Source of the DNA: Siphonodentalium dalli | Taxonomy: Eukaryota; Mollusca; Scaphopoda; Gadilida; Siphonodentaliidae | Direction: 5' to 3' | DNA: 64,000 nucleotides | NCBI GenBank assembly: GCA_032622095.1 | Contig: CP136063.1 | Location: 183,127,956 to 183,191,955 of the forward strand | In this document: positions 3,361 through 63,694 of the stretch, one piece after another | Layout of the letters: each line of letters begins with the position of its first letter | Numbering within the stretch: the stretch's first letter is position 1 | Program-made: the position numbers and the translations under genes | Notes under the pieces: model-generated | Database searches by the model: none | The model's input: only the letters and a program-made list of their open reading frames with translations | What the model was told of the DNA's origin: nothing

Positions 3361-3447
3361 GTCCCATGTGCTTGCTAATTATGTATAACCCAAATTTCTA
3401 TGTTAACAATTTGCTGCATAAACAGTCTGATGCAGCATCATGTTGTC

Positions 3448-3826
3448 TTAACCCTTTACCCAACAAACCGGCCAAAACCGGCCAAATAAAGCTTCAACAG
3501 CCTAAAATATCTTCGGTCTGTCTCAATAAAACCATACAAATATGGATATCATTGGAACCGGCTCATTGACCACATTGTGATGGTTACAGTTATGCCCTGT
3601 GCCAATGCATTCTCTTATATATGCGAGTCGACCATAGGTCGCCTCGCATATATAAGAGAATGCATTTAACACTTTTTACCATTTTTTCTTACATTCTTTA
3701 ACAATTTTATAATTTTTAATGTGTTAAGCCAATGCATTCTCTTATATATGCGAGGCGACCTATGGTCGACTCGCATATATAAGAGAATGCATTGGCACAG
3801 GGCCCTTCTGTTGGGTAAAGGGTTAA
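3448..3826. mobile_element. TTAA foldback MITE, family P1, copy 1
   Basis: The ends are TTAACCCTTTACCCAACA and its inverse, with TTAA at both borders (piggyBac-like target). Inside are two long hairpins whose arms are the AATGCATTCTCTTATATATG type, split by an AT-rich spacer with TTTTTACCATTTTTTCTTAC. Three more copies lie in the window. Confidence 0.93.
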
Positions 3827-12851: not shown

Positions 12852-13251
12852 TTAACCCTTTACCCAACAGAACGGCCCTGTGCCAATGCATTCTCTTATA
12901 TATGAGAGTCGACCATAGGTCTCTTGCATATATAAGAGAATGCATTGTCTTAACACATTAAAAATTATAAAATTGTTAAAGAATGTAAGAAAAAATGGTA
13001 AAAAGTGTTAAAAAAAGGATTTTTTTTAGGCCAATGCATTCTCTTATATATGCGAGGTGAACTATGGTCGACTCGCATATATAAGAGAATGCATTGGCAC
13101 AGGGCATAACTGTAACTATCACAATGTGGTCAAGGAGCCGGTTCCAATGATATCCATATTTGTATGGTTCTATTGAGACAGACCGAAGATATATTAGGCT
13201 GTTGAAGCTTTATTTGGCCGGTTTTGGCCGGTTTGTTGGGTAAAGGGTTAA
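12852..13251. mobile_element. TTAA foldback MITE, family P1, copy 2
   Basis: Same termini and double hairpin as the copy at 3448, inverted relative to it. TTAA borders are intact at both ends. Confidence 0.93.
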
Positions 13252-18780: not shown

Positions 18781-20532
18781 TTATGTCCTTACGAACACAG
18801 CCACTCCCAGGAAACAAACTGTCAGGACGACTGATGATACGTGCATGAATGATGCCTGTGACACGTGCGATGATCTCATGTAGTCTATTCTTTTCTGTTG
18901 GACTTCATAAGAACATGACTCCAGCTTGAACAAAAACTCTGAAAAGATTTTGAAATATTTTAACCTTAAGTGGTGCCATATATCTCCATGGAAACAGGGA
19001 TGTTCATATAGTCGATCTACCGCGCCCAGACACCCGGGAAGACACTCTTCAAATGCGCGACATTGTGATGTGGCAGTAGCAACAAGTCCGAGAATCTCTT
19101 GGTCATAATAATCTTTGTCTTCAAACCAGCGCTGCCTGCAACCTTGGATCGGGGTATCCCAAAAGGTCTCCGAATCCAACATACACGCTGGTAGAGACTT
19201 CCAAGAAGTGCAGATATGTGAAAGCACGCTTGTAGCAGGATACACAGTGAGGAATGAATAACACATTTCATTACCCGTTCCATCGCCCCAATGAACAGCT
19301 CCAATCGCAGTTTCAGTGTTATATACGCACGTGACTTTGAGTCGGTCACCTGGTCGGATTTCTATAGGCGATTTCATCTGGTGCATTTTTGGTTGGTCAT
19401 ACATGTATACTTCATCAACAGCCGTTGTTTCAACGAGTGTGCCATTTCTGAAGATTTCAACTTTGGCTTGCCTTCCATTATAATGCATGTGGTTGAGAAC
19501 AGAGACCACATACACGGGTTGTGACAAACTTAATGTGCTGCATTCCGTCGAGCATTCTCCGGTGTACTCAATATGCTTCTGCTGTGGTGGTAGACGGAGC
19601 CAGTTCTGGCCAATCGTGAGCATGACCATGTCGTTAGGTCGGCGATTGGGCGTGTAAAACAGTTTGAAGCCAGAGCTATCAGTCATCCCAATAATACGCA
19701 TAGGATTGTTCCAATGTATCTGTAGTGCTGCTTTTATAAACCCGCCCGTGAGGTGATTACCAACCCGCACGCCAAGATTCTCAGCAAGGCACTGTCCACT
19801 GACGCCCAATGTCCACAAGAAAATTATCGACTCGCAGTATCGGTGCGGCTTCATTCCACATTCGTATGCGGAATTCAGCGGAACATCACTCACATTTTTC
19901 GTTGGTTCGCATGCGAATACAATCATATGATGCGCTACTTTCCGGTTGTCGATGACCGCCTCAGCGGCAACCATGTGGTAATCTCCGTCGGTAGGTAAGT
20001 CGAACATAACACACGTGTAGGTGGTCTCTCTTGCTGGCACCGATACATTATCAAATTTGACTGTCATGTTCTTCATATCTGGTTGTTTCGTAGCATCGCA
20101 GTCGAACTCAACGTGATCACAATCGACCCACTCATCTTGCCCGAAGCATGCTTCTGAGTTCACTGATTGCTCGCATATGCCTGGATGCGACAGCCCAGAT
20201 ATGTAAGCAGGGGTGTCACCTTCGACCCACACGCACTCGGGATCACCCAGTTCATCTCCGTTTGATTTTCCATCACCATCACTATCCATTCCACACAAAC
20301 CCTTGTTCCAAACCCTTCCAGCTTCGGCGAAGTCTTGGCCGAATTGGTTCCTGATACCACCGCCCATTACATTACGATGACCAACTCCATGCCACACGAA
20401 GTTGTCCTTGCATGGATGTGGAACCTTATATCCATTTGGAATCCTATCCTGATAACTACTGTAGGCAGAAACTCTTGAGTAGCAGATCAGTGCGGTGAAA
20501 ATTGCAAGTGCGAATGGATAAAGCCGGCACAT
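18781..20532 (-). CDS. Temptin-domain / DBH-like copper type II monooxygenase, single exon
   Basis: Seen: one open frame of 583 residues with an ATG start at 20532-20530. Residues 1-23 are a signal-peptide-like hydrophobic leader. Residues about 24-120 form a temptin-like Cys module with a Ca-binding-type acidic loop at 83-98 (DSDGDG then ELGDP). The rest is a copper type II ascorbate-dependent monooxygenase: the CuA ligands are H201-H202 (HHMIVFAC) and H273 (QIHW), and the CuB ligands are H348, H350 (NHMH) and M423 (NEMC). N-glycosylation sequons are at N155, N162, N213 and N363. The last 20 or so residues are hydrophobic and end in FVRT, so a C-terminal anchor or GPI signal is possible. Known: PHM, DBH and MOXD enzymes hydroxylate amines or glycine-extended peptides in the secretory pathway, and temptin is an Aplysia water-borne pheromone protein. 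Inferred: an active secreted or membrane-bound monooxygenase of unknown substrate. No intron or frameshift is visible, and no clear AATAAA was found downstream. Confidence 0.93.
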   Translation of the reverse strand: MCRLYPFALAIFTALICYSRVSAYSSYQDRIPNGYKVPHPCKDNFVWHGVGHRNVMGGGIRNQFGQDFAEAGRVWNKGLCGMDSDGDGKSNGDELGDPECVWVEGDTPAYISGLSHPGICEQSVNSEACFGQDEWVDCDHVEFDCDATKQPDMKNMTVKFDNVSVPARETTYTCVMFDLPTDGDYHMVAAEAVIDNRKVAHHMIVFACEPTKNVSDVPLNSAYECGMKPHRYCESIIFLWTLGVSGQCLAENLGVRVGNHLTGGFIKAALQIHWNNPMRIIGMTDSSGFKLFYTPNRRPNDMVMLTIGQNWLRLPPQQKHIEYTGECSTECSTLSLSQPVYVVSVLNHMHYNGRQAKVEIFRNGTLVETTAVDEVYMYDQPKMHQMKSPIEIRPGDRLKVTCVYNTETAIGAVHWGDGTGNEMCYSFLTVYPATSVLSHICTSWKSLPACMLDSETFWDTPIQGCRQRWFEDKDYYDQEILGLVATATSQCRAFEECLPGCLGAVDRLYEHPCFHGDIWHHLRLKYFKIFSEFLFKLESCSYEVQQKRIDYMRSSHVSQASFMHVSSVVLTVCFLGVAVFVRT

Positions 20533-21330
20533 GTTGTCAAAGCATCATATTAAGAACATTCGTCGCAGTTCCAATCTCCGATGCGGTTCCTGGTAACGTT
20601 ATAGAGACGGGTGACATCACAGTAGCAGTCTTGAATCCAAACTCGTCTCTATAGTGAACCAGATCAGAGGGGTTATGAGGGGAATGAAGTCAACTGTTGT
20701 GAAATCTAACACCAGACAAGGCATATCTACAGCGATATATTGGTCATGCGAGGAAGTTTGTCAGTGGGTAGAAATTAGCCTCGGCTACCCGCAGTATAAG
20801 GTGAGAAAAACGTACAACTTGTTTGTGTTTATAAAGTACTGTATGCCTACATATTTGGAAATTTTCAAAGTTAACTTTTTATAACATGAAGAGAAAAACA
20901 TATTTTTTTGACAAAATAATTCAATATGAAATTATTGCACTTATTTTTTTTCAATCCGTATGTTCACATACGAATATGTATGAGTATATACTATAAATAT
21001 GCGAGGGACATTTTACAAATTTATCCTAGGTATTTAGGCTTAATTTAATAACTCCAGAAACACGTCAAACGTTTTGCCGATTCAACCGAACAATCTCCCC
21101 AGATTACTGTTATTCCGTAACTATCCACACAAACATGTTTGACGGCGGGGAGGGTGTGTTCCGTCAGCCTGGCATGTCTGCCCCTCCGTCCGCTTAGTAA
21201 CAACCTTGGAGCTCCCTATCTCAGACATCATATTAGTCCAAGTTTCCTTCAAGTTCAACGTATACACCAGCTAGTGAAACCGGTTTGGATAATACTGGTT
21301 TACGTCGACGTACGGTTACCTTATTAATAG
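20533..21330. other. 5' flank of the temptin-monooxygenase gene
   Basis: Contains the presumed promoter and 5' UTR of the minus-strand gene. No TATA box or repeat can be assigned with confidence. An upstream non-coding exon is possible. Confidence 0.5.
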
Positions 21331-23145: not shown

Positions 23146-23380
23146 TAATATCTACAATATCCGCCAGTCAATTGCCTATTTCGATAGCAATTAGAACAAA
23201 TAACAAAGAAAAGATACATGTCAGCTGAAAACAATTATAATGTCGTATAAGAGAACAGAGAAAATAACAATTTGGTGAATTTTCCGCGAGCTGGCAACAC
23301 GTCAACATAATAACATGTTAATCGTCAAGGCGTTTGTCATTTTGCTGGCAATGGGTGTTTGGTTATAACCAATAATATAT

Positions 23381-23672
23381 TGTCATTAATATAAAATGAT
23401 GTATTAGCTCATTCCATAGCTTTCGGCCATAGGCCTTCGTCAGTAGAAAACGATTAACACAGTAAAGTCTACATGTTGCTCTGACATCAACTCATTCGTA
23501 AATGCCAGACGGGTAAACAAACTCAATGAACGTACGTTATCCGTCTGGCATTTACGAATGAGTTGATGTCAGAGCAACATGTAGACTTTACTGTGTTAAT
23601 CGTTTTCTACTGACGAAGGCCTATGGCCGAAAGCTATGGAATGAGCTAATACATCATTTTATATTAATGACA
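23381..23672. repeat. Near-perfect 136-bp-arm palindrome with hammerhead-like cores
   Basis: Left arm 23381-23516 and right arm 23537-23672 are almost exact inverses around a loop of about 20 bp. Each arm holds a hammerhead-type core, CTGACGA, then AGGCC-TAT-GGCC, then GAAA: at 23610-23632 on plus and at 23443-23421 on minus. Penelope-like retroelement pLTRs are known to carry such ribozymes. No GIY-YIG or RT is seen here, so this would be a solo inverted pLTR pair. Confidence 0.85.
23610..23632 (+). ncRNA. Hammerhead-ribozyme-like core (plus-strand arm)
   Basis: CUGACGA (CUGANGA consensus), a 4-bp GGCC/GGCC stem II with a UAU loop, then GAAA. A possible AGCU/AGCU stem III follows with an 8-nt loop and a cleavage-type UA. 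A local stem I does not form, so activity is uncertain. The mirror copy is on the minus strand at 23443-23421. Confidence 0.45.
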
Positions 23673-24033
23673 ATTGGTCCCTTTATCTGGACTTTATACA
23701 TATACTTATTAATAATATATTGGTGTATCAATTGGAACGTATATATGCACCCTTTGTGAACATACGTGATGTATGTTTGTACATATTTCATAACTTTAGT
23801 GTGGTACGTCCGATTAAAAAAATGTGTTCATATGCTTTCTCACCAAGCACATACTATACACATACACGCACAAATTACATATAATCAATTATATATGTAC
23901 AGGCATTACCTTTATTGACATTTTTCACAATCACTACATTAAAGCTCGAATATATTATCAGTATATATGCGTAATATGATCTAGATGGCGTTACCATTTT
24001 TGACTATATGGTTTTCTTGTATTCTCATTGCAG

Positions 24034-30227: not shown

Positions 30228-30617
30228 TTAACCCTTTACCCAACAAACCGGCCAAATAAAGCTTCAACAGCCTAAAATATCTTCGGTCTGTCTCAATAGA
30301 ACCATACAAATATGGATATCATTGGAACCGGCTCCTTGACCACATTGTGATAGTTACAGTTATGCCCTGTGCCAATGCATTCTCTTATATATGCGAGTCG
30401 ACCATAGGTCGCCTCGCATATATAAGAGAATGCATTGGCCTAAAAAAAATCTTTTTTTAACACTTTTTACCATTTTTTCTTACATTCTTTAACAATTTTA
30501 TAATTTGTAATGTGTTAAGCCCATGCATTCTCTTATATATGCGAGGCAACCTATGGTCGACTCGCATATATAAGAGAATGCATTGGCACAGGGCCCTTCT
30601 GTTGGGTAAAGGGTTAA
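30228..30617. mobile_element. TTAA foldback MITE, family P1, copy 3
   Basis: Same orientation and structure as the copy at 3448, with TTAA borders. One GGCCAAAACC repeat near the left end is missing compared with the others. Confidence 0.93.
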
Positions 30618-31526: not shown

Positions 31527-32870
31527 TTACAGTACATTCATATAAAGCAAGTTATCATCCATCAAGAATGGATCAGTACACAGATGCCAATCAAACCCAA
31601 GCATTTGCGAGACAGCGGCCTCAAGATTACTCTCAGAACCACATGATGTCTTAAGCCAGCTCACAAAGTCATCAGTCCATTCTTGTTTGGCTGTCCAATC
31701 GAAGTCATAGGTGACTTCACTCCCGAGTATCAGAAGATTCTTTAGCTTTCTAGCTTTACTTATGAGTATAATAGATGTGGAAGAAATTGGAAAACGGTAT
31801 AAGAGCGTGTGAAGCTTGGTACATTTTTCTGCTAGTTCCACCAATGTGAAAGGGATTCTAGCATCAGCATCACAATTTGTGTCCATGAAAGACTTTGTAT
31901 AGGTGAAAGACTCTAGAGTATGTTGGCATGATGATATGACATCATCTAGAACACCTTTAGTTACTGCATTGACTAAATCATCGAGCACCAGTTTTCTAAG
32001 AGGTATGTTCTTCGGGAAAGAATCCCTTATAACCATGATGAATTTAAAAATGAGGTCCACTCGAAAGCTCGGACAAAATTTTCTAACATCTTTCCATAGA
32101 CTCTCTCTGAGCTGTTCACTGTCGTTCATCGGGAGTTCCTCATCTTGAATGAGGCTAAGCTCCAGTAAACCATTTTGCACCATTACCATTACAAGTTTAT
32201 CATTGACTTTGTCACGCCTGATGTGCAGTTTTCTCAGCCTTTTCAATTCGGAAGCAATGTTCATGTCCAGATAACCTTCAGCCTCGAACAGCGAATCATT
32301 TCCCAAATTCAGCTCTGTCAGCTTGGATAGCAATCCTTCACGATGAATGTGCTTGAGAGCACAATTATCGACATCATCTGACCACGTCATAACTGGGTGA
32401 ATCACAGCTATCTCACAGAGTTGCTGACATTTCTGCAGAACTTTACAAAATGAGCTGATGATGTTCTTCCCCCATGTGTAGCTCTCATCAACACCAAAGT
32501 GTAGTTCCTGTTCAATCTTGAATCTTTTCAGATTCGGACAATTATCGGCCATAGCTAACATAATTTGTATACCAGTCCTTCCAATTTTGTACCCAAAACA
32601 CAGCTCAATATTTCTCATGTATCGTCCAAACTTTTTGACAGTAATAAGAAATTTTGTTCTGCCTTCCCTTGCAAAATAGACATTCTCCTCAGCTTCACCG
32701 ATAAACTGAGTATATGACCATGCTTGGGTAGTTTGCAGTGACTGTAGTACATCTGGACAAATCTGCAGCAGATTGAGCTTCTCTTTATATGTCAGATACG
32801 ATAGAACGTGACTGATAGCGACTGATGGGAGATAAGCAAGAGGGAACTGGAGTGCATCTGTGTTTGCCAT
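31527..32870 (-). CDS. FBXO39-like F-box protein (main coding exon)
   Basis: Seen: an open frame of about 447 residues from the ATG at 32870 to the stop at 31527. An F-box lies at about residues 12-52 (LPSVAISHVLSYLTYKEKL, then the AW..TQF segment). VKKFGRYMRNIEL and, later, a segment with FIMVIRDSFPKNIPLRKLVL resemble the corresponding parts of vertebrate FBXO39/FBXO33. Leucine-rich, LRR-like segments such as LSKLTELNLG and LKRLRKLHI fill the middle. Known: F-box proteins are substrate adaptors of SCF (SKP1-CUL1-RBX1) ubiquitin ligases. The frame stays open upstream of the ATG to a splice acceptor (pyrimidine tract plus CAG) whose exon would start at 32896, so at least one upstream exon, coding or 5' UTR, is likely. 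A minus-strand AATAAA at 31442-31437 lies about 85 nt past the stop. The family call is firm; exact orthology is inferred. Confidence 0.85.
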   Translation of the reverse strand: MANTDALQFPLAYLPSVAISHVLSYLTYKEKLNLLQICPDVLQSLQTTQAWSYTQFIGEAEENVYFAREGRTKFLITVKKFGRYMRNIELCFGYKIGRTGIQIMLAMADNCPNLKRFKIEQELHFGVDESYTWGKNIISSFCKVLQKCQQLCEIAVIHPVMTWSDDVDNCALKHIHREGLLSKLTELNLGNDSLFEAEGYLDMNIASELKRLRKLHIRRDKVNDKLVMVMVQNGLLELSLIQDEELPMNDSEQLRESLWKDVRKFCPSFRVDLIFKFIMVIRDSFPKNIPLRKLVLDDLVNAVTKGVLDDVISSCQHTLESFTYTKSFMDTNCDADARIPFTLVELAEKCTKLHTLLYRFPISSTSIILISKARKLKNLLILGSEVTYDFDWTAKQEWTDDFVSWLKTSCGSESNLEAAVSQMLGFDWHLCTDPFLMDDNLLYMNVL

Positions 32871-32941
32871 CACTGACACCCTGCCTCGTGCATCACCTGA
32901 AAAAATGGTAAAACATACATGATTAGCAACTATTAAACAAA

Positions 32942-33347
32942 GTTAACAAGGATGCCCTAACAAGGGTTCACGCTGGCCGGGAAAATGTTTTTGGCCAATT
33001 TTGTTTAACATTTCTGATTTTTTTTTTAAACCATTTTTCAAAAAGTTTGGCCAAATTGAAAAAACTAAATAAAATTACATACTCTTTGCCGATGACAGCC
33101 TCCTATATCCAGCTGTATCAACAACAACTGACTGCCAGAAGAAAAAGTTAGTAAGGATGCCCTCACAAGGGTTCACGCTGGCCGGGAATTTATTTTGGCC
33201 AATATGTTTTACCATTTCTGATTGTTTTTTTTTTTACCATTTTTCAAAAAGTTTGGCCAAATTGAAAAAACTAAATAAAATTACATACTCTTTGCCGATG
33301 ACAGCCTCCTATATCCAGCTGTATCAACAACAACTGACTGCCAGAAG
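32942..33347 (+). repeat. 205-bp tandem duplication
   Basis: The segment 32942-33142 recurs at 33147-33347 with only a few differences. Each unit starts with GGATGCCCT and the phrase GGGTTCACGCTGGCCGGGAA, which resembles the hAT terminus at 54638. Each then runs into the LINE FADD region, so the copied unit spans a junction between two mobile-element fragments. Confidence 0.9.
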
Positions 33348-40870: not shown

Positions 40871-41326
40871 TTATGGCGTTTGGGTACAAATTAAACGTCA
40901 TTACCCAAACGCCCTTTCGCAGTAGTATAAATGCGCCTTATTCGAGAAATTGGTCAAATAGACCAAACTCAGTCTATGTAAACATACACTCAGATTCATA
41001 CTGATACTATTTTTATATGTGGGTATGTAGTTTACTCCAGACTGGACCAAACTATGCTATTTTATTCCATATTTTGGATACTATTTGATAAAATAGCTCG
41101 TTTCAAATAACTTCTTGGTGTATATGGTGTCATTTCGCTTATTTAACAAAGACATTGGGCCCTATTTATATAGAAATTAGTGATAATTATTCCTGATATT
41201 TCGCGGATAAGCAAAAATAATGAGCAACTTCGGTGCGCAAACGCATTGCAAATTTACTTATATATCGACGGTGTAATCGTAAAACTTTGAGTCGTTTAAT
41301 AAAAAATCTGCAAACCGATGATTTTT

Positions 41327-42857
41327 GCGTTTGGGTAATGACGATTTTGTTTGGGTAATGCGCATCGTGTGTATATAATGGCCCTGGTCGGTCTTGTTTG
41401 CAACATGGATTCAACGAATTCCAGGTGAAACAGTCGTATATATGGCGTTAATATTCGAATTGTATATCCACTTGTATGTTAAACCACAGGATCTTGGAAT
41501 TTGGTCAAAACCCCTCTTTTATTGGCAGAACCACCACCCGGGACCATAGGTCACGGAAGGAACGAAACACGAATTTGTTGCCACCCATTTTGAACTCAAC
41601 TGTATTCCTACAAAAAATATATTTTCACTAAAAACTTTTGGTACCTCTTACACCTTAGATGCCAATCTACAACATTCCATAGGTATATTTTTCCAGTTCT
41701 TCGAAAACCTCACTTTATTTCGGTAATGTATTGTAAATTCACCAACGAACACAAATCTGCGACACCTCCATCACCCGTTGTAGAATCTGAGTAGCGGAAA
41801 TGGTACCGAAATATGCGGAAACTTTAAAACTATGATCCGGAGACGGATAGCATGAAAGTACCGTTTATAATTTCGAACATAGCTGCTGATTACATGTTTA
41901 TTACATGACCGAAACTGATAAATTGTGTCAAATACAATTTAATATATGTAATTCTGCGTCAATCATACGTCGTGGTTGGTATAACACAATTTTTAACCAA
42001 GAATTCGAAGAGATCCTGACCAGGTACGTATTATACAAAGTACGGACATTTTTAAGGGAAAAAAAGGCGTGGACTGAGAATTTTTTCTCTGAAACAAAAT
42101 CAATTTATGATCGATTTAATATTTTTGTGGGGTATTTTCGACTTTGAGAAAAACAATGCCATGTGGCGGCTAGCTGTCTTGAATTTCCAATTCATGAGCA
42201 CAGGCTATATAATCATATGCCTAAAGCCATTCTTTGAGAGTTTTGGTGATGATTCGTTACGAGCCACGAGTGACGTATACTATTTATATATCCTGGTTGT
42301 GATACAATTGACAATACTTATAGTTGCTTATTAAATAAAATTTATGTTAGCGAGTTTATCACTAACTCAAATTTATAAACTAGTTATTCGGTAAACCAGT
42401 TTGCCTTTCAACTTGTACAAATAAAACGTATACCGTAAAGAACACGCAGGATAACATGAAAGAATCTTATTACATTTTGTTACTATATTTGGCATATTAT
42501 GATATAAATGGCGAGCTTTTGTACCCTACATTGACAATTTTGAATTTCGCGAAACTAAACACTCGTTCTATATATCGTTACCTAACTGAAGAAACATGTT
42601 TTCTCTCGTCAACTAAGACATGTATTTGTTCGTCAGAACTAGTAAAAAACAGCATTTTATGTGGAAATAATCAAAATATTCTGGCAACGAATATGCACCA
42701 AAACGCACAAAGGAATCGCTTCATGCATAGGCATATATATACCAGGCCTCCCCGTGAGTCTATATATCTTTTTTTTCTTCTACTATGTGATATTCGATCA
42801 GTGGGTTGATTTACTATTACTATTATATGATGGATAGTTTAGGTCTATAAACAGATC

Positions 42858-42903
<46 letters not shown>

Positions 42904-42945
42904 AGAGAGAGAGAGAGAGAGAAGAGAGGAGAGAGAGAGAAGAGA

Positions 42946-43012
<67 letters not shown>

Positions 43013-43806
43013 GTGGTCCCCTTATGACCAATCATTGCAACCAGTAGCATTACCAAGTCAAGTAGTACATAGGCCTACCGGTGCACAACGAACATAAAAA
43101 AAACCAATACCACGTGGTCGTGCCATAAATAGAAATAAATTATATTTAAAATATTTGTACTAATTACCATTCAGTCAAATGAAGAATATCTTCTTGGACA
43201 GTCGTCATTTTCATCAGATGATAACAGCAGACAGACTAATACAAAATTTTTCAAGAAAATACACAAAACATCAGGATAAGATCATCAAAAACGCGCATAG
43301 TATGACGCAAACATAAACTGATTTAAGTTTTCTGGCGCCTAAGTTCGAAAACCGCACGCACTTTCAAATATTTTTGAATTTCGCGGGCTTTAAATTTAGG
43401 TTTCGATTTTATTTCGTTCCGACTTTGTTATTCCGGAAAAAATGGTTTTGTGCCATTTGTCATTCAGATTCTAGAACGGGTGATGGAGGTGTCGCATATT
43501 TGTGTTCGTTGGTGAATTTACAATACATTACCGAAATAAAGTGAGGTTTTCGAAGAGCTGGAAAAATATACCTATGGAATGTTGTAGATTGGCATCTAAG
43601 GTGTAAGAGGTACCAAAAGTTTTTAGTGAAAATATATTTTGTGTAGGAATACAGTTGAGTTCAAAATGGGTGGCAACAAATTCGTGTTTCGTTCCTTCCG
43701 TGACCTATGGTACCAGAGGGGTTTTGACCAAATTCCAAGCTCCTGTGGTTAAACTGCGTATATATAACGATATAGTGAAAATAAAAATCGTCATTACCCA
43801 AACGCG
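41327..43806. mobile_element. Foldback element with long inverted arms
   Basis: Arms 41327-41805 and about 43445-43806 are inverted copies. They start with GCGTTTGGGTAATGACG and share the AAACCACAGGA.CTTGGAATT and CCTCCATCACCCGTT blocks. The centre holds two AT-rich frames (41905-42147, 80 codons; 42107-42334) with no recognisable family, and a GA microsatellite. It is perhaps a non-autonomous or decayed transposon. Confidence 0.75.
42862..43010 (+). repeat. GA microsatellite, about 149 bp
   Basis: An impure (GA)n run with GGGGGG and AAGAGAGG breaks. The Ser-Leu frames read from it on the minus strand are not genes. Confidence 0.98.
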
Positions 43807-44042
43807 TTCAGCGATTCTGCAATGGCGCTTTGTGGTAATGACGTGTTTGGGTAATGACTATTTTCACTTTGTCGTGCCAGTATATTTCGAATATTTCCCC
43901 AACACTGGAATAAACTAATTTATGAACACATTTACCTTATGTGCGTCCAACCACAGTTTTATCATTAACCTCCAGCATATATAATTAGAATTATCTGCTT
44001 TCAATATAAAAGTTGCGTCATTACCCAAACGCTAAATAGCGT

Positions 44043-44476
44043 TTGGGGGCTTCTAGACGTTTCGTACCATGGTCGTTTCGTACCTGGACGTTTCGTACCA
44101 TCTGGTCGTTTCGTACCATATTTTTTGGTCGTTTCGTACCGCATTGTTTGGTCGTTTCGTACCATGTAGAAAATCAATTGGTCGTTTCGTACCATGTAGA
44201 AAATCAATTGGTCGTTTCGTACCGTGTGTTGTACCATGTTGGGAATGGGGGGAAACAGTATTCATTTCATACTTTATTCTTTATTTTAAAATAACAATAA
44301 CATATTAACATTAACAACATTATTTCCAACACACGGTACGAAACGACCAATTGATTTTTTACATGGTACGAAACGACCAAAGAATGCGGTACGAAACGAC
44401 CAAACAATATGGTACGAAACGACCAGATGGTACGAAACGACCAAGTACGAAACGACCATGGTACGAAACGTCCTGT
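44043..44476. mobile_element. Foldback element with GGTCGTTTCGTACC arrays in both arms
   Basis: The left arm (44055-44225) has eight copies of GGTCGTTTCGTACC or a close variant. The right arm (44333-44470) has seven, inverted, in matching order with matching spacers (AAAATCAATT, CATCT, TTTGG). The centre is about 110 bp. It is bordered by GTTTGGGGG on the left and CCCCCGTTTGG on the right. Confidence 0.88.
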
Positions 44477-45564
44477 ACCCCCGTTTGGCTAATGAAGCGT
44501 TTGGGTAATGACGATTTTCACTTTGTCATGCGCTCATATTTCAAATATCTTCCACCCACGTAATACAACTAGTTTATGTGCGAATTGACACTATGTGCGT
44601 TAAAAGACACTCAGTCCTTCACCTTGGGTTTATTTAAAATCCAAATTGTACGCGTTTGGGCAATGACGCTGAATAAACCTACGATTTCGATTTCGACTCT
44701 CAAAATCGGAAAGATAGAAATTGCACGACGATATGACACTCGGTTATATTTTTTTCGACAAATCATAACACACGCCTCACTCTACAGCTCTAAAGAAATG
44801 CAAATTTATTTTTCTTGCGAAAGTACAAGCCGTCTTTCACATGCGTTTGGGTAATGATTCTTGAGAACCGGACAGGTTTTTTGGAAGGAAGTGCGAGGTT
44901 TTTACTAATATTATGTTAATTTTCGTCACAAAATTCAATTTTTATAGCATTCTGTCCAAAATTCCACACCTGGATGTGGATATACATCGAGGAAACAAGT
45001 TCGCCGGCGATCAGGGGAATTCGGGGAATATTTATAGCTCTTGGTTGGGACATGCTATTTCTTGATATATAGCCGAGTTCAGTCATTGAAAAAATAAACG
45101 TTGGTACTTCGATACCAAACCCGGCTTATCCCTAATTAATGCTCGTAACATCAGCTAAAAGAAGATACACATCTCCTGGCTATAGGAAGGCTGGTGCAGT
45201 TTATATGAAGAACTAAGTTCGTGGGACACGGTTTTGATCATTTACTGGAGAATCACCCATTTGCATCAATATTAACATGTGCAAACATTGTTTTCTTTAA
45301 TAACAATATTGAGAAACATCTGCATAAGACACTGACCAGTGATGAAACAACATTTATCACTGGTGATGGAAACACATTTGATACTGGTGACTTAACCACA
45401 TTTGCATAAGACATCAATTGGTGATTTAGCAACATTTGGCACTGGTGATTGAACAACATGAATGTTTGTTACAGTTTGTAACAGCAATATCACAAAGATA
45501 ATTATTCTAATTATATTAACTGTAACTGATATATATATATATACAAATTCAAAAACATATAAAT

Positions 45565-46160: not shown

Positions 46161-46205
46161 AGAAATCGGATATATAAAGACTTTATATATCCGATTTATC
46201 TGAAG

Positions 46206-46280
46206 GTCCCAGTTAGCCAAGGTCCCAGTCAGCCAAGGTCCCAGTTAGCCAAAAGGTCCCAGTTAGCCAAGGTCCCAAAT
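46206..46280 (+). repeat. 18-bp tandem repeat upstream of LONP1
   Basis: About four and a half copies of AGGTCCCAGTTAGCCA, with small spacing changes, end about 130 bp upstream of the LONP1 ATGs, where a promoter or 5' UTR would lie. No function is shown by the sequence. Confidence 0.85.
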
Positions 46281-56255: not shown

Positions 56256-59200
56256 TCATAGTCGACAAGGCATTTGAGAGCATGATTCATATAGCCTCCA
56301 AAGTTTTGCTGTATGCAACAAAAATGTGCGTGTAAAATCAGAAATATCCACTACTTCATCAGACAAATCAATTGGCATGGAACTCAGGAAGACAGCAAGT
56401 AAATCGTCCGAGTTTAGAGCCTCAAGCTTTAAATAACAAGGAATACCAAAGTGAGTTATGAAGTCATACCAGAATGTGTTACGGATACTGTTAAAGGCAG
56501 GGCAATACAAGATGACATGCCACACAGGATTGAGATACTCGGATCTACAAAGTTGACAATTCCCACCATCTTCGTATGTGGTACGAGAGACGAGTCTTCC
56601 TACAGTTAGGAAGGAAGCTTTATCTCTAGGGTACTTTTTGCAGGCTAACCAAAGAAGGCTCGTCTCTAGGCGAGGGTGAATTAATTTTAATATCGAAAGA
56701 GCGTTGTCTGCGTGAACGTCATATTCCCATTTCATGAGGTGAACAGTGTCAACGTTATCGCGAATCAAACTCTTCCAAATTTAGTTGGAAAGTGACCGGT
56801 ATTCGAGAAGTGCACGAGATGATTGAGTAGATTGTACTTTGACAACGTTTGGTGGAAGTTCTCGATAAGATGACTCTGTTCGCTCAATAAAATGGATTCG
56901 TTAAGTCTGAGAATGAATACCCTAGCAGATGTTTTCTCAATACTGGTCCTACATAGCATAGCAATAAATGACAGTTTGCGTCGTTCGATGACGTTGTACA
57001 GAGAAGTGATGCCCCAAAGGCCCTCTGCAAGTAGGGTGCGAGCTCTTGTGGGTAAACCCTGGATATTCTTCACGCAACAACGATGTGCTTTCTCGAGCTG
57101 TAGTATATTTGACTGTGATGGGTTGAAAAGAAGTTCTGACCCAAAAAGTGCTCTGGGAAGAACGACCGATTTATAGATTTTCACGCAGCTGGAAGGGGTT
57201 ATACCACCAGCATATAACCCGGCATTTGATAACATGAAATATGTGGAGAGCAATTTCTTGCATATGTTTTCTATGATAGCAGTTTGTTGAGAGAACTTGT
57301 GGATTGGGATGCCCAAATGAGTTGCGTGGTCGGATTCTTGAATACGGTGGTCGCATAGAGACCATGAGCGGATAGCACGGTTATAATCGGTGGGATTCAT
57401 TAAATACAATGCAGACAGATTTCGTCGGATTATATTGGAACCTCCATTTTCTGCTGTAGTCGGTACAGATATCACACATAGACTGCAGACCGGGACTAGT
57501 AAGTGAAAGGAGAGCCATGTCGTCGGTCTGAGTTGGGGACGAGCAGTTCAGAGACGAGATCGACAGACCATTCCCGGAAGTTGAAATCAGGGTTATGAGT
57601 TCATCAATATATAACATGTACATGAGCGGAGAAATTATGCTACCTTGTCTGGTGCCCTGCTTGACGTCGAACCAGTTTGAGAACACTCCGTTGTATCTAA
57701 CACAGCACGAAATTCCTGTTAGGACGTTTGCGAATACACGCCAAGCTTTACCTTTCAGACCCTTGTTATGTAATTTGTAAAGAAGGCCATTTAACCAGAC
57801 TGTATCAAAAGCTTTTTGTGTGTCAAGGAAACATGAATATAATTTGCTTGATTGCTGTTTCGTATAGGAGATACACTCTTGCAAAAAGTACGAAGTCGAG
57901 ATGGAATTCACGCCCTTCTGGAAACCGTGTTGTAGCGCATTTACATGGCAAATTTGGGGTGTGTTCGTTTCAAGTCTGTTGAGTAGTAATCTTTCGAAGA
58001 TCTTGTAAACGATAGGGAGGATTGTGATGGCTCTATAGTTATCAAATTTATGTCTGGATTTCGTACCTCCTTTAAAAAGGGGAACCATAACTCCTTTCTT
58101 GGCACTAGATGGGATCGATTCAAGTTTAATCATGTGGGTAAATAAGATTGCTAAGTTGTCGAAAAGACGCACACTCCCATATATGACATGCTCATATGAA
58201 AGTCCATCACACCCTTGAGCTTTCTTTTTACTGAGCGAAGGTATAATTGCGGTAATTTCCTCACGAGTCACATCGGAGCACAGTAATTTGTCAGTATTAG
58301 CCACATTTTGATCATTTGAAAGCTCATAGACAATGTCGTTTACGGAAATGAAGTGATCATTGTTGAAGGACTCGTCTCCAGATGGAGTGTAGATGCCCTC
58401 GAAGTAGGCTGCCCACGCATCATTTATTTGTGTTTCGGTACGCAAGATTTGAGAGTTGTGTTCAAAGTAAGTTGGTTGAGATGTGCCTAGTCTGGATTTC
58501 ATAGAGTTAAACGTGCGAAAGAATCTTTCTTGGTCGATTTCAGCGCAGTGGTCGAGTTTATCATCAGATTCGGACACAAAAGCCGAGACTCTTTGGCGAT
58601 GGTATTTACGGAATTCTCTTTTGGCATCCTTGTACCTCATAAATGCAATATCAAGATTTGAATGAATTCTACCAGAATAAATCCAACGTTTACGATATTC
58701 ACGCATTTCTCTATGGAGATGTTTTAGAGTTTGGTCCCAGTATGGTTTGAGATGTTTGTTGAATTTTTTACGGGGTATAGTTTGAGCGGATGCCGAATTC
58801 ATTGCTATAACGAGTTCATCATAGAAACTTTCCAAGGAGCTGTTATCGGATATTGCCATAGATGGGAGATGTGCGTCAATCGATTCTTGGTAGTTGAGAA
58901 GATGTTCATGTGAAGAATCGAGAAGCTCCCACTTGAAACGGACAGGGGTGTTTTGCATCGGTGCAGAGTGGGTAACAAACTGAAAGTTAAATGATGCAAA
59001 AAGTGGTCTATGATTCGATACGTTCAGTGCATCATCATCTAAGACAGACACATTGATTAGTGAGTGGATGTCATATTCAGACACAAGAATGTGATCGATA
59101 ATAGAGTTCCCATTTCCATTTGCGGATACAAAAGTTGGAATCGAGCTAGGAAGCCATTGTTTTGAGTTAACTGATCTGAATTTAAGTGGATGGCTATCCA

Positions 59201-59798
59201 TACAAAATCTGAATGCGTTATTGCAAGAGTCGGTTTTGTCGATGTTACCATTGAAATCACCCATTAGAATTATTTTTCCTAGGGTGGAGTAACTATTCAC
59301 GAGATTGGTTAATTTGTCCAAATACTCCTTATAGAAATCGACTGTGTAATTGGATGACGGAAGATACACTTGAAATATGTACAAGAACGTGTGATCGGTC
59401 ATTTGCAATTGAAGTCCAACTAAACGGTCGTCTTGTATGTCAAGTAAGGCAACTCTATTGGCATAGCGTTTATGCCAAAATAGAGCTACGCCCCCTTTGC
59501 CCCTACCAGGCCCACTGCCCCTTTGAAGTGGGAGCCTCTGCGAGTAATCACACACAACATGACATGAATAATGATCGCTCAAGGTTTGTAAGAAATGGGC
59601 ATTGTGGCTGGACAGCCAGTGCTCACTAAGGCCACACACATCAACAGTATCAGTGTTTAGAATTTTTGACAAGTAGGAACAGCTGGAAAATGCCCCAGTC
59701 ATATTCCACGAGAATATGGACAAGGCCATAATGCTGACACAGAGAATGCGAAAATAAGAGTGACGTAACATCGTATGGATCTCGAGAGTAAGCTGCAC
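56256..59798 (-). pseudogene. LINE ORF2: endonuclease-reverse transcriptase, frameshifted
   Basis: The main frame (59798-57381, 805 residues) has an AP-endonuclease domain with SWN at the start, LSEHWL, GGVALFW, LMGDFNGNI, IIDHILVS and SNHRPLF. The reverse transcriptase has FDNYRAITILPIVYKIFERL, LDTQKAFDTVW (catalytic D659), QGSIISPLMYMLYIDEL and TQTDD (D759-D760). The RT C-terminus continues in another frame from about 57390 (THLGIPI, SVVLPRALFGSELL). After a second shift near 56775 it continues to a C-x2-C-x9-H-x4-C zinc motif (56.5-56.6 kb) and a stop at 56256. Key residues survive, so decay looks recent. The layout fits the jockey/CR1 group of LINEs; the clade is not settled. Confidence 0.92.
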
Positions 59799-63294: not shown

Positions 63295-63694
63295 TTAACC
63301 CTTTACCCAACAGAAGGGCCCTGTGCCAATGCATTCTCTTATATATGCGAGTCGACCATAGGTCGCCTCGCATATATAAGAGAATGCATTGGCTTAACAC
63401 ATTAAAAATTATAAAATTGTTAAAGAATGTAAGAAAAAATGGTAAAAAGTGTTAAAAAAAGATTTTTTTTAGGCCAATGCATTCTCTTATATATGCGAGG
63501 CGACCTATGGTCGACTCGCATATATAAGAGAATGCATTGGCACAGGGCATACCTGTAACTATCACAATGTGGTCAAGGAGCCGGTTCCAATGATATCCAT
63601 ATTTGTATGGTTCTATTGAGACAGACCGAAGATATTTTAGGCTGTTGAAGCTTTATTTGGCCGGTTTTGGCCGGTTTGTTGGGTAAAGGGTTAA
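63295..63694. mobile_element. TTAA foldback MITE, family P1, copy 4
   Basis: Same family, in the orientation of the copy at 12852. TTAA borders and both inner hairpins are intact. Confidence 0.93.

Follow-up and report, generated by a model that had tools for sequence, protein, structure and literature searches.

Results

Structure of the locus

The window, i.e. the whole stretch of DNA analysed here (64,000 nucleotides of contig CP136063.1 from the scaphopod Siphonodentalium dalli), carries at positions 44048-44480 a foldback element of 433 bp with two different ends, A and B. An earlier note, made from the letters of the window, had placed such an element at 44043..44476; the element proved to be there, and its limits were moved when the borders were refined from ends common to other copies. 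The features of the locus are as follows.

43790..44858, no strand assigned: older host repeat with 16-bp GTCATTACCCAAACGC motifs, within which the element appears to be inserted
44040..44047, plus strand: left target-site copy CGTTTGGG (sequence; alignment of the flanks, once joined, with neighbouring unit 43770-43947)
44048..44480, plus strand: whole foldback element, A end left and B end right, non-autonomous (ends common to other copies)
44048..44054, plus strand: A terminal 7-mer GGCTTCT (233 exact A ends of the form GGMTTCT genome-wide, control 0)
44055..44223, plus strand: A arm, 8 motif units (starts 44055, 44071, 44086, 44104, 44127, 44150, 44180, 44210)
44322..44325, plus strand: probable junction of an internal deletion, ATTT being the 4-bp microhomology (homology limits in 35 longer copies)
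44335..44473, minus strand: B arm, 7 inverted motif units (starts 44460, 44444, 44429, 44411, 44388, 44365, 44335)
44474..44480, minus strand: B terminal 7-mer GGGTACA, read inward (193 exact B ends genome-wide, control 0)
44482..44489, plus strand: right target-site copy CGTTTGGC, 7/8 match, with an additional C at 44481 (sequence; family duplications of 8 or 9 bp)

The left side of the element is built of eight direct GGTCGTTTCGTACC units (a 14-bp motif; six exact, one with one mismatch and one with two), and the right side of seven inverted units (five exact, two with one mismatch). Shuffled windows contained on average 0.20 motif matches, and none of 100 reached 16. Both the unit numbers and the mirrored arrangement described in the earlier note were confirmed: in either arm the spacers measure, from outside inward, 2, 1, 4, 9, 9 and 16 bp, and the units start at intervals of 16, 15, 18, 23, 23, 30 and 30 in the A arm and of 16, 15, 18, 23, 23 and 30 in the B arm, the left arm having one additional 30-bp unit. 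The arms can pair with 93% complementarity over 152 nt. The two flanking 8-mers agree at seven of eight positions, the extra C lying beside the B end, and the window copy is without a perfect target duplication under a strict rule.

When the two flanks are joined (with the left copy kept), they align through the junction with a neighbouring unit of the host repeat, 43770-43947, at a score of 118, as compared with 39 for the left flank and 101 for the right flank taken singly. Since joining the flanks restores a neighbouring repeat unit, the element appears to have been inserted into an older repeat.

In the host repeat (40897-44858), the second motif, GTCATTACCCAAACGC, is found in either orientation; inverted arms at 41478-41790 and 43464-43754 are 90.7% identical overall and about 1.7 kb apart. 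Exact GTCATTACCCAAACGC motifs number 397 genome-wide (1 in the control). At three places the motif recurs in tandem arrays with a period of about 2.0-2.1 kb, some steps being near 2.24 kb; the motif stands 17 times at C2:84014425-84048433, six times at C1:199978510-199988791 and at least eight times at C3:106763935-106778425. In stretch L281, two adjacent GTCATTACCCAAACGC tandem units are 99.5% identical to each other and can be aligned, over some 400 bp and at about 68%, with the outer repeat of the window. Rfam gave no match to the tandem unit carrying this motif.

Several other features were observed in the window. A 587-aa open frame at 18781-20544 (minus strand) combines a Temptin C-terminal domain with a copper type II monooxygenase. 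A LINE-type open frame occupies 57381-59798; judged by these two frames, the window is animal-like. Another open frame, of 471 aa at 31527-32942 (minus strand), looks F-box/LRR-like by eye, and Pfam gave no match to it up to E 1. An element of about 400 bp with a self-complementary core is present in four copies, 91-97% identical (3447-3826, 12852-13251, 30228-30617 and 63295-63694), and a near-perfect 296-bp palindrome (95.7% self-complementary) occupies 23379-23674. A further short motif array, of AAGGTCCCAGTTAGCC, lies at 46203-46277, and an array of GGTCCCAATCGTCC adjoins the damaged B arm of the family copy L271 (at about L271:3370-3490); the two arrays possibly represent another foldback family.

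A dispersed family with target duplications

The genome examined comprises 2.23 Gb in 9 contigs. A genome search for motif clusters, which the earlier note had suggested, led to many loci: exact motifs number 2455 (1196 + 1259), against 62 (38 + 24) for a reversed-pattern control. The window element is thus one copy among hundreds of relatives. Arrays with the same or closely related spacing recur in most of the first 20 stretches on contig C1, decayed or differing arrays being found in L228-L232. Four decayed copies among these (L228, L229, L231 and L232) are mutually 85-97% alike over most of their length, flanks included, and because the likeness extends into the flanks, this element seems to have been multiplied within a larger repeat.

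In a search of the genome with the element's DNA, 40 of 1431 first-look candidates were scored. Besides the window copy itself, these comprise 39 copies that agree with its A side (query 1-279) at 98-99% and are spread over all nine contigs; given that degree of match, many family copies look recent. Among the fetched stretches, two-ended copies occupy 39 genome places, with ends 113 to 3734 bp apart. The check for target duplications was positive: 33 of these 39 copies have perfect ones, with a length of 8 bp in 25 copies and of 9 bp in eight, and six, including the window copy, do not. A 7-bp duplication, suspected from the window alone, was ruled out, other copies having 8-9 bp.

A satellite or a local palindromic duplication that is not mobile would also consist of short tandem units, and foldback elements can seed satellites (PMC4079207, in excerpt). 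Such a reading has next to no probability, as copies lie on all nine contigs and many independent insertions were found with duplications and with one A and one B end. Neither a single locus nor a satellite lacking mirrored arms elsewhere, the two outcomes that the earlier note had set against a foldback element, was encountered; mirrored A/B arms are present at 39 places.

Exact 14-mer scans of other contig sets returned 86 viral and at least 118 genomic stretches, in which the matches are single and scattered. A second match, with up to two mismatches, occurs in six of 204 such loci, and a cluster in none of them; these matches were rejected as chance.

Two different ends and a regular number of units

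In aligned borders, the A end reads GGCTTCT or GGATTCT, then AGA, then CGTTTCGTACC, and the B end reads GGGTACA, then GGA, then CGTTTCGTACC, with variants in some copies. Contigs C1-C3, for which the lists are complete, hold 85 exact A ends and 78 exact B ends. Where two adjacent exact ends on these contigs converge within 10 kb, which is so in 46 cases (267 bp to 8.8 kb apart), the pair is always A-B and never A-A or B-B; 39 of the 85 A ends and 32 of the 78 B ends are without an exact partner within that distance.

Eight units are present in 33 of 39 A arms, at intervals of 16, 15, 18, 23, 23, 30 and then 30 or 31, and seven units in 26 of 39 B arms, at intervals of 16, 15, 18, 23, 23 and 30. 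Therefore, the eight-versus-seven arrangement of the window copy is a rule of the family, and an origin of the eighth A-arm unit by a local slip was ruled out by its recurrence in those 33 arms.

Conservation of the motif

Divergence was lower in the motif than in the spacers in three sets of arms: 3.6% (82/2275 cells) versus 8.0% (89/1108) in 26 C1 arms, 1.9% (56/2879 cells) versus 6.7% (81/1210) in 30 B arms, and 0.2% (6/2940 cells) versus 1.3% (16/1230) in the 30 matching A arms. The C1-arm test, from which 3 of 29 arms were dropped as near-duplicates, is biased in that its copies were chosen by exact motif match; the fairer test is that on the B arms, whose copies were chosen by similarity on the A side. 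Column-level p values were 0.015 (C1 arms), 0.068 (B arms) and 0.44 (A arms), and cell-level Fisher p values, computed on cells that share ancestry, were 3e-13 (B arms) and 3e-5 (A arms). Thus, the greater uniformity of the motif, first noticed in the window, holds in direction in all three tests and falls short of column-level significance in two of the three.

The 14-bp motif contains two CpGs, and methylated CpGs would raise its mutation rate. The companion idea that the motif is a protein-binding site gains indirect support from conservation and fixed spacing; its role as a site is one that we infer, and the 14-bp units may be sites of the transposase. It might be argued that they serve instead a host protein, or act as promoter or silencer sites (e.g. 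an autoregulatory array), since the ends of plant MULEs reportedly hold promoters in addition to transposase sites (PMC3310237, in excerpt). Against host sites stand the arrays at both ends, with their mirrored order and fixed spacing, and the short-unit arrays also present in MULEs of hosts as distant as a mosquito and a nematode. We regard host sites as distinctly improbable and prefer transposase sites.

A linked transposase gene

Longer copies contain pieces of a gene whose reading direction is from B to A, and splice-like signals suggest that it has introns. When the adjoining exons of copy L271 were joined with introns omitted, a MULE domain (PF10551) was matched over positions 2-98 of 99 (E 2.2e-10; 41.3 bits, cut-off 27.6); the MULE match of the catalytic exon alone was under the cut-off. 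The first two exons matched a PHD finger (PF00628; 24.8 bits, cut-off 24), and an open frame of L274 matched FLYWCH (PF04500; 25.7 bits, cut-off 23.6), both scores being only just above the cut-offs. THAP had no match among the scanned exon pieces.

Exon remnants are present in 36 of 43 sequences (the 39 two-ended copies and four other stretches). The earlier note had proposed a search for an autonomous element with the same arms. The 43 sequences yielded these linked gene pieces and no complete, intact transposase gene, none of the 43 having all seven pieces and the best keeping six. In a separate observation, L279 contains inside its element a 342-aa open frame that by eye resembles part of a LINE reverse transcriptase, and it had no match in Pfam at E 0.001.

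A genome search with the catalytic exon gave 612 candidates, of which 150 were scored. On C1-C3, 24 of 42 close matches (>=60% identity) have an exact A end no more than 5 kb away and are oriented to it as expected, as compared with 0 of 20 distant MULE matches (<60% identity); three of the 42, including one of the 24, are second pieces of copies that had been counted once. The fraction expected by chance is about 0.0003, and 18 of the 42 are without an exact A end nearby. This difference (24/42 versus 0/20) ties the gene to the A/B ends.

These results bear on the likeness to Galileo that had been drawn from the window. A Galileo-like or other P-superfamily foldback, its arrays bound by a THAP-domain transposase, would agree with long, internally repetitive inverted ends, and the longest exact flanking repeat of the window copy (CGTTTGG, 7 bp) has the length of Galileo's duplication (PMC3573991, in excerpt). 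The family duplications of 8-9 bp and a linked gene with MULE and FLYWCH domains contradict this assignment, and the lack of a THAP match among the scanned exon pieces also speaks against it. Membership in the P superfamily thus fails, the gene being a MULE, and a Galileo-type origin is extremely unlikely.

The window copy as a probable deletion derivative

In 35 longer copies, the match to the A side of the window element ends at element base 278 (21 copies), at base 295 (nine) or elsewhere (five), and the match to its B side begins at base 275 in 29. The ATTT at 44322-44325 is probably the microhomology of a deletion junction, the exact position of which is less certain because nine A-side matches run further. 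Among 40 scored copies, the window copy alone matched the full 435-base query in one piece, and no two of the 39 two-ended copies have the same sequence. The copies seem to have undergone individual deletions and not to stem from the amplification of a single MITE. The window copy itself seems to be the product of an internal deletion and to lie nested within an older repeat.

Discussion

We conclude that the window element very probably belongs to a Mutator-like (MULE) family of DNA transposons with foldback-type ends, as a non-autonomous copy with an internal deletion. Muta1 and Tm1 are precedents for such a family. The foldback structure proposed in the earlier note is borne out by paired mirrored arms at 39 places, by duplications and by a linked transposase gene. 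The family shows what defines the Foldback structural class, namely long inverted ends that consist of short repeats and dispersed copies with target duplications (33 of 39 perfect), as well as the features of the MULE superfamily: a transposase domain, duplications within the range of 8-11 bp and a gene linked to the ends. By its listed features the element is probably of the Phantom/Tm1 type; it is not a Galileo.

For Phantom MULEs, excerpts of PMC6446971 list duplications of 8-10 bp and either no finger, FLYWCH or SWIM, and FLYWCH is listed also for other MULE groups. The linked gene has FLYWCH on the N-terminal side of the MULE domain, a Phantom feature that is not exclusive to Phantom. 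Rehavkus, the sister group among MULEs, is an alternative placement: the same excerpts list for it a PHD finger, which was found in the linked gene, and a minisatellite near one end, which we count as a likeness to the window family. They give Rehavkus 9-bp duplications, a feature not borne out by the family (mostly 8 bp, 25 versus 8), and list FLYWCH for Phantom and some other groups but not for Rehavkus. A Rehavkus-type element therefore appears rather unlikely, and the Phantom/Tm1 type is preferred.

The copies of the family are probably moved by the product of the Mutator-type enzyme gene in longer relatives. This transposase would bind the 14-bp units, pair one A end with one B end and then cut, and insertion would proceed with a stagger of 8-9 bp. 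Short copies such as the window copy may have arisen by microhomology-mediated deletion during gap repair and would be moved in trans; we infer the latter, because none of the 43 sequences holds all seven gene pieces.

A more speculative reading, to which we give some credence but less than an even chance by a good margin, combines two parts. The ordered, non-interchangeable ends would act as a ruler, the eight-unit A and seven-unit B arrays, with spacers widening inward, permitting only A-B complexes; and the gene, joining a PHD finger with FLYWCH, would mark a lineage that bridges Rehavkus and Phantom.

One genome presents a foldback family, a deletion series and transposase-gene fragments side by side. 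A-B pairing together with fixed spacing offers a clear case in which the role of the repeated sites of MULE ends can be tested. The set of domains may be of use in placing Rehavkus relative to Phantom.

Within the literature searched, the family looks new and of a known kind (a MULE foldback), and the set of PHD, FLYWCH and MULE domains may be new. The earlier note knew of no named family with the motif; in agreement with this, four 13-mers taken from the motif matched no paper in a text search. A text search combining PHD finger, FLYWCH, MULE and transposase returned PMC6446971 only, in the excerpts of which PHD and FLYWCH belong to different groups. A literature text search for sea-urchin TU elements found none, and a bivalve transposon paper mentions MULEs and, in its excerpt, neither foldback nor Phantom elements (PMC10294476).

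Comparison with known systems

The following comparisons draw on excerpts of the papers cited. Galileo of Drosophila resembles the window family in its long repetitive inverted ends and, putatively, in secondary transposase sites (PMC3573991); it differs in belonging to the P superfamily, in its 7-bp duplications (PMC3573991) and in its THAP domain transposase (PMC4079207). Tetris of Drosophila virilis, like the window element, is a non-autonomous foldback, attributed by its authors to Mutator, and its duplications of 8-10 bp are like those of the window family, whereas its units are of about 220 bp (PMC4079207).

Muta1 of Aedes aegypti, which transposes in yeast, shares with the window family duplications of 8 or 9 bp, inverted ends built of repeats (145 bp with 9 copies of a 12-bp repeat in Muta1) and a MULE gene, which has two exons in Muta1 (PMC5225508). 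Muta1 and other Muta families have over 300 putative derivatives and are called type 2 Foldback. Unlike the window family, Muta1 has a terminal motif that is a 10-bp imperfect palindrome, and its spacers are 3-4 bp, as compared with 1 to 16 bp here (PMC5225508).

Tm1, a Mutator/Foldback element of Meloidogyne root-knot nematodes, has asymmetric terminal 7-mers, then GGA, then 1-9 units of ~14 bp, encodes a FLYWCH-MULE protein and makes duplications of 8-10 bp, mostly 9 bp (PMC3169594). Its end motifs (CGGTTAA, CCTACCC) and its repeated motif C are unlike those of the window family in sequence, the ends having been compared by eye. The window motif was compared with motif C after the fact, and any likeness between the two is weak (shuffle p 0.02 for the M. 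hapla consensus and 0.20 for M. incognita). The number of units varies from 1 to 9 in Tm1 and is as a rule 8 at A and 7 at B in the window family, whose duplications are mostly of 8 bp and whose gene has a PHD finger, none being mentioned for Tm1 in the excerpts of PMC3169594. Tm1 and the window family both have asymmetric 7-mer ends, generally one of each (as in the 46 of 46 A-B pairs here), GGA followed by a repeated motif of about 14 bp, a gene with FLYWCH and MULE in some copies, and short gene-less copies; the arms of Tm1, like those of the window element, are about 93% identical (PMC3169594).
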